DNA from: Flavobacteriales bacterium
Lineage (GTDB): Bacteria > Bacteroidota > Bacteroidia > Flavobacteriales_D > Sanyastnellaceae
Direction of reading: 5' to 3'
DNA: 64,000 nucleotides
NCBI GenBank assembly: GCA_015665315.1
Contig: JADFAK010000145.1
Location: forward strand, 1 to 64,000
Part shown: piece by piece, positions 3,334 to 51,042 of the stretch
Numbering within the stretch: position 1 is the first letter of the stretch
How the letters are laid out: every line of letters begins with the position of its first letter
Position numbers and translations under genes: made by a program
Notes under the pieces: model-generated
What the model was told of the DNA's origin: nothing
Seen by the model: the letters and a program-made list of their open reading frames with translations, nothing else
The model's database searches: none

Positions 3334-4261
3334 GAACTGCAAAGAAAGGCCTTATTCTCTTTAAAATTGAATCATTCATCAAATGTACATTCAATAAATC
3401 CTCCAGTGATTGGTAATCTCCATGTTGTTCGCGATATTTCACAATGCTGCGCGCCACCTTGTAATCTAAATACAGATGAGAATTAAGCTCTTCAATTGAA
3501 ACTTTATTGATGTTTCTCACTTCAGCAAGCGTGGAATCCAGTGAGCATTGCTCCATTATCTTAGCCAATTTAATCTCGTCCATCCCGTACAAGCCCATTA
3601 ATTGATCATAAGATGTAAAACCGCCAAGCTCCTTCCGCAATTGAACAATTGCACCAGCATAGAATGGACCCACCCCATTTATTCTAATGAGTTCAGCCGA
3701 ATCTGCCTTGTTAATTTCAATTAAGTCGACAGATTTGGTGACCAAATTCTGCTCCTTATCTTTCACACCAACTTCTTCGTTATCAAACACCATCCAAGGC
3801 CTAAGTTGATTCAATTTATCTTCTGAAACAACAAATGACTTTCCCACATCTTTCGGAGAATTGAAACCACCCAATACATTTTTGAACTTGATCAGAGACA
3901 TGGCTTGTTTTTCACTAAACCCCAGCTCTACCCATCCTTTCGAGGTAAGTTCGTTCGGATTAAAATAATGATCAACGGTGACCAATTTACGCGCATCATC
4001 AGATCTTGGCTCAACGACTTGAGAGAAGTACTCTGTATTCTTCTCACCCCAATTTGTAAAGACGGTGTCTTTTTCAACAAAACATTCGGAAAAGGACACA
4101 TCAGGGTATTCAGGAGGATTGAGTCGATCCCACGATGCTCTAATTAGAGATACTACAAGCAATAGTGTGCACAACACAACAACGCCATAGCGTTCACGCC
4201 TGTTAAATGCAAGATGCTCCTTCCAACGTCCCACTAGCTTAGCGATATTTCTTGATTGCAC
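3326..4261 (-). CDS. ComEA-like helix-hairpin-helix protein
   Basis: About 311 residues with one N-terminal membrane segment (residues 25-42, [14 protein letters not shown]) followed by an extracytoplasmic part with repeated helix-hairpin-helix units: [19 protein letters not shown] (about 180-200) and [17 protein letters not shown] (about 250-270), plus a degenerate earlier one. Such proteins bind DNA non-specifically and are related to the competence receptor ComEA; a role in DNA uptake here is inference. No ATG is available: GTG at 4261 (overlapping the symporter gene) or GTG at 4234 (just after the symporter stop) are the candidate starts. Followed by apt. Confidence 0.8.
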
Positions 4262-48980: not shown

Positions 48981-49488
48981 GCAACGACTCAAAGACGTTA
49001 CCACCTTTTGTTTTGACTACGACGGCGTATTTACCGATGGAGTCATGATCCTTTTGTCCAATGGTGAAATCGCGCGAACAGCTCATGTGCGCGACGGTTA
49101 TGCCGTACAACTCGCAGCTAAAAAAGGATTCAATATATCGATCATCACGGGCGGTAATCAGGAATCTGTGCGCACTCGTTTCGAAGGACTGGGTGTGGGC
49201 GACGTATTTCTTGCAGCGAAGAACAAAGTTCAAGTTTACCATCAATACTTGGCCGACAAAGGCATCGACCCCAATCAAGTGGTCTACATGGGCGACGACA
49301 TCCCCGATTACCACGTATTGCAACTTGCAGGAATAGCCTGCTGTCCAGCCGATGCCGCAACTGAAATCAAGTCGGTATGCGATTATATTTCGCCAATAAA
49401 AGGTGGAAGTGGTTGTGTGCGCGACATTATCGAGCAGACTTTGAGAGCGCAGGGCAAGTGGTTGGATTCCGATAGTGTTGAGTGGTAA
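48967..49488 (+). CDS. kdsC: KDO-8-phosphate phosphatase (HAD, KdsC-like)
   Basis: Removes phosphate from KDO-8-P in synthesis of the lipopolysaccharide inner core. 173 residues, capless HAD type C0: FDYDGVFTDG (motif I), IITGGNQ (motif II), K in AAKNKVQ and MGDDIPDYHVL (motif IV). GGSGCVRDIIE near the C-terminus is the substrate-specifying tail of KdsC. Overlaps the DUF2520 gene by 14 nt. Confidence 0.9.
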   Translation: MTTYKQRLKDVTTFCFDYDGVFTDGVMILLSNGEIARTAHVRDGYAVQLAAKKGFNISIITGGNQESVRTRFEGLGVGDVFLAAKNKVQVYHQYLADKGIDPNQVVYMGDDIPDYHVLQLAGIACCPADAATEIKSVCDYISPIKGGSGCVRDIIEQTLRAQGKWLDSDSVEW

Positions 49489-49493
49489 AAAAA

Positions 49494-49511
49494 GCAGCTC
49501 CGAAGAGCCGC
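49494..49511 (-). terminator. Rho-independent terminator of marR-DOMON-NTF2
   Basis: Minus strand: 7-bp stem GCGGCTC / GAGCTGC (one G-U) with a TTCG tetraloop, then seven T. On the plus strand the stem has a mismatch and no T-run, so it serves the minus-strand operon. Confidence 0.8.
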
Positions 49512-49535
49512 CTTCTTCATGTTCTGATGTTTCTC

Positions 49536-49964
49536 TTAGGCCCTAATTGTTGGCGTATCGCTCACTATGAGCCACTGTCCGTCGCCATCTTGCACCAAGT
49601 TCAATAGCGTGACGAACGTCGCTTTATCGCCAGTCAAAGTCACTTTGGCCGAAGCTGTATTTCCATTCAGTACGATCTTTTCAACCTGTACTTTTCGTTG
49701 GTCGCCTCCAAATTCCTTTGAGCGGATCTTTTCGACATACACCTCCTTGGGCATAATACTCACCGTTTCAGAACCAAACAAGCGATTCATCACCACGCGA
49801 AAATTGTCGTCCAGACAAGCTGCTAGTTTGTCGGCATCATTTTGATCTCCAGCTTGCGCAAATGTCTGAATGAGTTGAGTGATTGCTTTCTCTTCCGATT
49901 GCTGGGCACTGCCCAACTGTGCGAATAGGACCGTGAACAGTCCGCAAATAAATAGTCGTTTCAT
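49536..49964 (-). CDS. Secreted NTF2/SnoaL-like protein
   Basis: 142 residues with a signal peptide (MKRLFICGLFTVLFAQLGSA). The rest is a cone-shaped NTF2-like fold: AITQLIQTFAQAGDQNDADKL then four to five strands ending DGQWLIVSDTP. No catalytic residues can be named. Third gene of the MarR-controlled operon, 10 nt after the DOMON gene; both are exported, so they may act together in the periplasm. Confidence 0.78.
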   Translation of the reverse strand: MKRLFICGLFTVLFAQLGSAQQSEEKAITQLIQTFAQAGDQNDADKLAACLDDNFRVVMNRLFGSETVSIMPKEVYVEKIRSKEFGGDQRKVQVEKIVLNGNTASAKVTLTGDKATFVTLLNLVQDGDGQWLIVSDTPTIRA

Positions 49965-49974
49965 ATTCTTGAAT

Positions 49975-50496
49975 TTATAGATTGATTTGAATAGCTGTGC
50001 GCATCATCGAGTGATGTTGAAAATCGTCGTCGCGACTGTAGGCCATAATGAGGAAATAGCTTTGACCGCGAAGAAGTGCTCGTTGATATTCTGTGGCCGT
50101 ACCAATTGGCAGCGAAAAAGAGATAGTCGTGGTTTGAGAGGATTCTTTTCCACCAACATGCGCAACGAGAATCTCCCCGCCCAGTTCAGCAATTGGCCTA
50201 TACATCCCTGGACTTGAGGTAAAATGTTCGACTACTTCTGGTCGACCATTGATCACTCGACCCATGATCAAATAAGCTCCTTGTATTGAATCATCATCGT
50301 CGAAACCTATCGTTACCCAACCTTCTGTTGGCGCCTGCAGTTCGAATTGAATACGTCCTCCCTCTTCCTTCCATTGAACGGTCATTCCCTTGTATTCCAC
50401 CTTTCCCAGTTCGACAAGCTGCGCCTGGGTATGGATTGAGAATCCGAGTCCTATGCTAAAGCATGCCGTCATGATGCAAGTAGCTAGTGCCTTCAT
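49975..50496 (-). CDS. Secreted DOMON-domain protein
   Basis: 173 residues from ATG 50496, with a signal peptide (MKALATCIMTACFSIGLGF). An ATG at 50526 is also in frame but overlaps an operator-like palindrome. The body is a DOMON beta-sandwich: VQWKEEGGRIQFELQAPTEG, GWVTIGFDDDDS, AYLIMGRVING and FQHHSMMR. DOMON domains bind heme or sugars and often act in extracytoplasmic electron transfer; the Met and His residues near the ends could be heme ligands (inference). Under MarR control by position. Confidence 0.82.
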   Translation of the reverse strand: MKALATCIMTACFSIGLGFSIHTQAQLVELGKVEYKGMTVQWKEEGGRIQFELQAPTEGWVTIGFDDDDSIQGAYLIMGRVINGRPEVVEHFTSSPGMYRPIAELGGEILVAHVGGKESSQTTTISFSLPIGTATEYQRALLRGQSYFLIMAYSRDDDFQHHSMMRTAIQINL

Positions 50497-50524: not shown

Positions 50525-50538
50525 ATTGATATATCAAT
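50525..50538. promoter_or_regulatory. MarR operator candidate 2 (ATTGATATATCAAT)
   Basis: A perfect 14-bp palindrome between marR and the DOMON gene. Its 12-bp core TTGATATATCAA is identical to the core of the palindrome in the marR promoter (51029-51042). Two identical sites next to a MarR gene indicate its operator. Confidence 0.65.
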
Positions 50539-50559
50539 TGATGATTTAAAAAAATAGAC

Positions 50560-51000
50560 CTAGGTCATATTCTCCTTAATGGTTTTAAGCATTCGGCTCA
50601 ATTCTTTGAGTTCTTCTTCATTCAAACCATCGGTACTCTTTTGACGCAGGGCATGAATCAGTTCCATGTTCTTATCGATGAAAGAGGTGCCTGTTTTAGT
50701 CAGACCAATATGATAAGACCGTTTATTCTCCTCTACAGCTTCACGAAGAATTAGGCCCTTCTTCTCCAACAAATCCAAGGTCCGCGTAATGGAAGCTGGA
50801 TCGCGGTACGACTCATGGGCGAGTTCTCTTTGGGTGAGTGGCTGCTTTTCGTGGACAATTTTCAAGAGTACCCATTGCTCCACCGTCACTCCCAGCCCCA
50901 TTTTATCCATTTCCTTCTGTGAATACTGGCGAGTAGCCTTGACTGCTTGGTCAAGCTGAAACATAATTACTTCCTCAATTGCTTTTTGCGCCATTTCCAT
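50560..51000 (-). CDS. MarR-family transcriptional regulator
   Basis: 146 residues, winged helix-turn-helix. VTVEQWVLLKIVHEKQ, LTQRELAHESYRDPASITRTLDLLEKKGLI (recognition helix) and a beta wing with ENKRSYHIGLT are typical. N- and C-terminal helices form the dimer interface. MarR proteins repress their own operon until a phenolic ligand or oxidant binds. The 14-bp palindrome at 51029-51042 covers its -33 region and a second copy precedes the DOMON gene. Ligand not known. Confidence 0.92.
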   Translation of the reverse strand: MEMAQKAIEEVIMFQLDQAVKATRQYSQKEMDKMGLGVTVEQWVLLKIVHEKQPLTQRELAHESYRDPASITRTLDLLEKKGLILREAVEENKRSYHIGLTKTGTSFIDKNMELIHALRQKSTDGLNEEELKELSRMLKTIKENMT

Positions 51001-51012
51001 GAATTAGAGATG

Positions 51013-51042
51013 CAAAGATAAAACAATAGTTGATATATCAAC
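51013..51042 (-). promoter_or_regulatory. marR promoter with overlapping operator (GTTGATATATCAAC)
   Basis: Minus-strand -7 element TATCTTTG at 51013-51020; 18 nt upstream GTTG (51039-51042) serves as -33. The perfect palindrome GTTGATATATCAAC at 51029-51042 covers the -33 element and part of the spacer, so bound protein would block RNA polymerase. Leader to the marR ATG about 7 nt. Confidence 0.7.

Follow-up and report, generated by a model that had tools for sequence, protein, structure and literature searches.

Bacterial repressors that stop an elongating polymerase by standing in its path are established, with GbsR of Bacillus subtilis among the proposed cases (PMC7396694, PMC4132739, PMC10310618, PMC6237814). 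GbsR, a MarR-type protein reported to act by roadblock, uses an A/T-rich inverted-repeat operator that lies downstream of the transcription start and at which it is proposed to stop elongation (PMC7396694); roadblocks by MarR proteins are thus already known. The controller protein C.Kpn2I, which belongs to an unrelated family, autoregulates by an elongation roadblock in its own transcription unit, at a site within its own reading frame, and so shortens its own mRNA (PMC6237814). LacI, CodY, CcpA and PurR are further bacterial repressors that stop elongation, and at the LacI roadblock release is mainly by Mfd (PMC4132739, PMC10310618). In eukaryotes, RNA polymerase I stops in a T-rich stretch about 15 bp before a roadblock site, that of Reb1 or Nsi1, at terminators that are constitutive and for which an RNA hairpin is necessary (PMC12366685).

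The locus described here lies on the minus strand of a 64,000-nucleotide stretch of DNA from a Flavobacteriales bacterium, the whole of which is called the window below; its features are collected in Table 1. Its putative operators, O1 and O2, are palindromes with the common core TTGATATATCAA. Like GbsR, the regulator is of MarR type and has an A/T-rich inverted repeat downstream of the transcription start, but GbsR acts just downstream of the promoters of other operons whereas O2 lies behind the regulator's own gene, and here there are in addition an invariant T-run at a fixed distance and a second operator on the promoter. Unlike the C.Kpn2I site, O2 stands behind the stop codon and should spare the marR mRNA. 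The polymerase I terminators share with this locus a T-rich stretch at a fixed distance before the roadblock site, but no hairpin was found here. The new part is the combination of operator and T-run behind a regulator gene, which is unusual and sharply conserved. To our knowledge, no conserved element at a fixed distance upstream of the operators of LacI, CodY, CcpA or PurR has been reported.

Table 1. Features of the marR-DOMON-NTF2 locus, in window coordinates
Feature	Position	Strand	Basis and remarks
O1, putative operator palindrome GTTGATATATCAAC	51029..51042	-	sequence; covers the -33 region of the marR promoter
-7 element TATCTTTG of the marR promoter	51013..51020	-	sequence; a TATCTTTG box is also found behind O1 in G012
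marR, 146 aa, Cys-free	50560..51000	-	Pfam MarR PF01047, 1.7e-15
A/T run TATTTTTTT, with TTT at its end	50548..50556	-	ends exactly 10 bp before O2; follows closely on the marR stop
O2, putative operator palindrome ATTGATATATCAAT	50525..50538	-	22 bp behind the marR stop, along the operon
DOMON-fold protein, 173 aa, hydrophobic N-terminus	49975..50496	-	Pfam PF03351, 6.4e-14; AlphaFold2 model
NTF2-like protein (Lumazine_bd_2), 142 aa, hydrophobic N-terminus	49536..49964	-	PF12893, 2.9e-11; model, NTF2-fold matches
Terminator hairpin behind NTF2, UUCG loop and U run	49486..49519	-	fold -19.9 kcal/mol, z -5.8

Both palindromes are perfect and, like the -7 element between O1 and the marR start codon and the order marR-DOMON-NTF2-terminator, stand where the first-pass annotation had placed them; the three genes have now been identified by Pfam and the terminator by hairpin folding. 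The position of TATCTTTG puts the TTG of O1 at the -33 position. The terminator, with a stem of 15 pairs, is absent from the listing of a consensus terminator scan, probably since pairing of the stem can continue into and past the T run. Family alignment sets the DOMON start at 50496, leaving 29 bp between O2 and the gene; the mechanical ORF start, 50526, falls inside O2.

At up to one mismatch the window would be expected to hold 0.26 sites, and it holds two, both exact. A search of the whole 4.6-Mb genome found just three exact copies of TTGATATATCAA, namely O1, O2 and one within an hsdS-like gene, so that the pair at the marR locus is the only one in non-coding DNA. Allowing one mismatch raises the genome count to eight, the same as in the reversed control; the extra sites sit in other genes, and only the exact pair stands out. 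This equality is what could be said for taking the palindromes as chance or relics, a reading that is hardly conceivable in view of their position and their conservation across orders, and that the footprint described below makes untenable. The looser pattern TTGAYRYRTCAA adds six further sites, five of them within long ORFs and one in a possibly non-coding stretch; for a wider regulon, then, the genome offers no clear additional intergenic site and at most one doubtful place. Within the reach of such a search by sequence pattern, the target of MarR in this genome appears to be the marR-DOMON-NTF2 operon alone, and the small local regulon that had been proposed for it is supported by the want of other clear intergenic sites.

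The conservation was established by a DOMON profile search of named genomes, carried out blind to marR and to the sites, which gave 59 loci. In nearly all of those from Bacteroidota the order is O1-marR-O2-DOMON, mostly followed by NTF2. The module is found in Ulvibacter, Kriegella, Sediminicola, Hyunsoonleella, Flagellimonas, Maribacter, Crocinitomix, Imperialibacter and Chryseotalea and in uncultured Cytophagales, Saprospiraceae and Chitinophagales, and thus spans these groups as well as Flavobacteriales, though it is rare, DOMON being present in 7 of 395 genomes of the class. DOMON relatives outside Bacteroidota (Spirochaetes and others) are without this MarR and without the sites. In the analysed set of 32 loci, two of which are marR-NTF2 without DOMON, both sites are present within one mismatch in 29 and both are exact in 15, whereas in shuffled sequences each site turns up in about 0.1 loci per set; O1 is found upstream of marR in 30 of the 32 at up to one mismatch. 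The distance matrices of the three proteins are correlated (Mantel r 0.75-0.86, higher than in any of 999 permutations), which fits a jointly inherited unit. This phylogenetic footprinting supports both MarR autoregulation and the second, internal control point at O2 that the first-pass annotation had suggested. On these comparative grounds MarR very likely represses at both O1 and O2, and the autoregulatory module, so judged, is real, conserved and in its main outline ordinary.

Several loci depart from the common plan. G012, of the same family, keeps marR-O2-NTF2 without DOMON, and there GTTGATGTATCAAC precedes a TATCTTTG box; its sibling G031 (L012 / L049) has a decayed copy, with in-frame stops in marR and in the NTF2-like gene and with sites that have drifted, one of them to TTGATGTATCAG. 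L105 has an additional exact palindrome (3943-3954), its third, between DOMON and NTF2, 13 bp behind the DOMON stop, with the TTT element described below missing. RidA-like (Ribonuc_L-PSP) genes are found between palindrome and DOMON in L090:2971-3441, L091:2402-3483 and L095:3058-3444, together with a peroxiredoxin in L091; these insertions point weakly to reactive-compound stress.

The regulator itself is a clear MarR protein (57 bits for PF01047 against a cutoff of 24.6), and the palindrome goes with its close relatives. Thirty loci of such relatives were taken from a MarR profile search of 399 genomes of the order, and the palindrome was scored as present when it adjoined marR or stood in front of marR's operon; at up to one mismatch it was present in 25 of the 30 and in none of 25 loci of distant MarR paralogs. 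A recognition helix [RK][DE]xAS[IV]xR is common to the site-bearing MarR proteins and different in others. The best NCBIfam match is BilQ (NF045593), at 58 bits far under the 125-bit equivalog cut-off; a search of genome contigs with the single MarR sequence as query gave no match, and a literature search found nothing relevant on a MarR with DOMON or on the palindrome. An OhrR-type thiol switch was also considered: the window MarR has no cysteine and in its relatives cysteines are merely scattered, none being conserved, so that redox sensing by cysteine was rejected and a bound ligand would be the more likely inducer. In a sister group of MarR proteins (L051, L053-L055, L059-L065) an AraC-like half gene precedes marR and has the palindrome in front of it, often next to a gene for an MFS transporter; the operator would here control an operon of another kind. 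In G039 (L010:1960-1971) marR and a divergent gene for a PLP-dependent decarboxylase have one exact palindrome between them, with TATATTTG directly behind it on the decarboxylase side.

The two sites differ in what they are anchored to. O1 lies over the -33, as in the window locus, or, in other loci, between the -7 box and the start codon, and both positions are suited to repression. O2 lies 14-22 bp after the marR stop (median 18), while its distance to the DOMON start varies from -22 to 1069, including loci with RidA-like or peroxiredoxin genes between; its anchor is the end of marR, not the beginning of DOMON. Many loci have an extra half-site, TTGAT three bases past the O2 palindrome (e.g. 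L082:3396-3422) or ATCAA three bases before O1 (e.g. upstream of marR in L088), an arrangement that suggests a second dimer at a 15-bp step.

Aligning the loci on O2 exposed an element that the first-pass annotation had not described. In all 35 loci TTT occupies positions -13 to -11, which leaves exactly 10 bp before O2, and it does so in 34 of 34 once similar sequences are removed, against a background of 2%; the nine-base run that it closes consists wholly of A/T in 34 of the 35. Four loci that were not used to notice the element (L076, L138, L139 and L140) fit it too, and in L076 there is extra sequence between the stop codon and the element with the spacing to O2 unchanged. The element is found neither at O1 nor at the palindromes without marR in L093 and L095. 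When the DNA of 395 genomes of the class was scanned blind for W6-TTT-N10-TTGATATATCAA, there were 12 matches, against none for the reversed control; O2 sites that follow a marR of this clade make up seven of the 12, among them two new marR-NTF2 loci, which, having been chosen by the pattern itself, were not counted as tests of it. The composite is also present once in L141 (1520-1531), between two large genes without marR, before the gene of an apparently secreted protein.

The element could be part of a promoter, and O2 the operator of a second promoter for DOMON and NTF2 with a non-standard -7 made up of the A/T run and TTT, so that MarR would block initiation there as well. The fixed TTT could belong to a TAnnTTTG box, ten of 31 runs do go on as TTTG, and in one of the O1 arrangements the operator likewise sits about 12 bp behind the -7 box. 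Set against this, TAnnTTTG, the standard Bacteroidota -7 box, is found in 15 of 32 marR promoter regions (2.7 in shuffles) and in none of 32 O2 regions, which makes an ordinary second promoter at O2 unlikely; as to a non-standard one, neither the TA nor the final G is conserved, the spacing is 10 rather than about 12, and O2 remains with marR where genes have been inserted before DOMON. We regard a second promoter of this kind as unlikely. From these patterns O2 appears to be an operator within the transcribed unit, downstream of the promoter and without a standard promoter of its own.

Cooperation of O1 and O2 on the single promoter, by DNA looping or otherwise, would account for the near-identical pair of sites that almost all loci have at a distance of 455-514 bp, and the A/T run would then serve to bend the DNA, as A-tracts do. 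MarR proteins are, on the other hand, usually dimers without a looping tetramer, and the distance between O1 and O2 has no helical phasing (R 0.22 at 10.5 bp, p about 0.24; an exact period of 10.0 bp gives p about 0.05 among five periods tried and was not counted). Bending, moreover, would not require TTT on one strand at one place, where AAA is never found, and the TTT is left unexplained, so that looping seems quite improbable. The element might also have nothing to do with MarR and be bound by a different factor, or act in the RNA at the end of marR in stability, pausing or reinitiation, with O2 merely an extra binding site. It is conserved as strictly as the operator, and a direct link between the two is putative, which favours such a reading; but its spacing to O2 is exact while that to the stop codon varies, and it is absent where the palindrome has no marR in front, and we consider this reading very improbable.

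A roadblock behind marR offers an explanation that we hold to be, on balance, the probable one: a self-contained MarR module in which O1 blocks initiation and O2 is a roadblock with an element for stalling or release. We infer MarR binding and repression at the two sites, and stalling and release at O2, as follows. The MarR dimer would bind both copies of TTGATATATCAA, O1 on the promoter and O2 immediately after the regulator's own gene. Occupancy of O1 would block initiation of the marR-DOMON-NTF2 operon; a polymerase that escaped O1 would transcribe marR and then be halted by MarR on O2, with the 3' end of the stalled RNA in or near the A/T-rich, TTT-ended element. Released there, it would have transcribed marR past its stop codon but not DOMON and NTF2, and since O2 lies just behind that stop the regulator's own mRNA would be spared. 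An inducing ligand would free both sites, and the two putatively exported proteins would be made. A protein roadblock explains the fixed spacing of TTT and O2, because the dimensions of the polymerase determine where it stalls and any sequence relevant at the stall must therefore keep a fixed distance to the operator.

Some observations count against the roadblock reading. About half of the A/T runs are AAAAAAATTT, A-rich before the TTT and not T-rich, so that a weak rU-dA hybrid is less evident, and a search for an RNA hairpin ahead of the T-run gave none (mean z 0.05, 35 loci). Mfd can free a roadblocked polymerase without any special sequence (PMC4132739). More tentatively, the A/T run with its TTT, the 10 bp and the MarR operator may together form a conserved terminator, fixed behind the regulator's own gene and operated by the repressor, at which polymerase stops and is released; and, with the same reserve, one promoter may in this way yield only the regulator under repression and the whole operon on induction.

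As for the genes so controlled, the DOMON protein scores 52.7 bits for PF03351 against a cutoff of 32.7, and its AlphaFold2 model (pLDDT 91) has a predicted fold like those of the heme b cytochrome domain of cellobiose dehydrogenase and the DOMON of dopamine beta-hydroxylase, at Z 13-14.6 over about 134-142 residues, the value of 14.6 being that for dopamine beta-hydroxylase. Unlike those two domains, with which it has about 10-13% identity, it is a small stand-alone protein; a DOMON profile gave no match among PDB sequences. M78 is present in 29 of 30 proteins of the Bacteroidota set, and H161 and H162 in all 30; they are not conserved in the marR-less DOMON relatives of other phyla. The conserved residues are compatible with a possible Met/His pair of heme ligands, and together with the predicted fold they would suit a putative role in binding heme or another ligand. 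The NTF2-like protein is modelled (pLDDT 88.5) with the common NTF2 fold. Both proteins are apparently exported, as judged only from their hydrophobic N-termini.

The usual ground for inferring roadblock repression is where the operator lies and nothing more. In this case comparison of loci from several Bacteroidota orders fixes the distance between T-run and operator to the base, and the locus thereby becomes a directly testable case of how a stalled bacterial polymerase is released and of how a repressor may spare its own mRNA. The three-gene module, a regulator and two apparently exported proteins, carries a reliable DNA signature by which further members, and the inducer, may be found.
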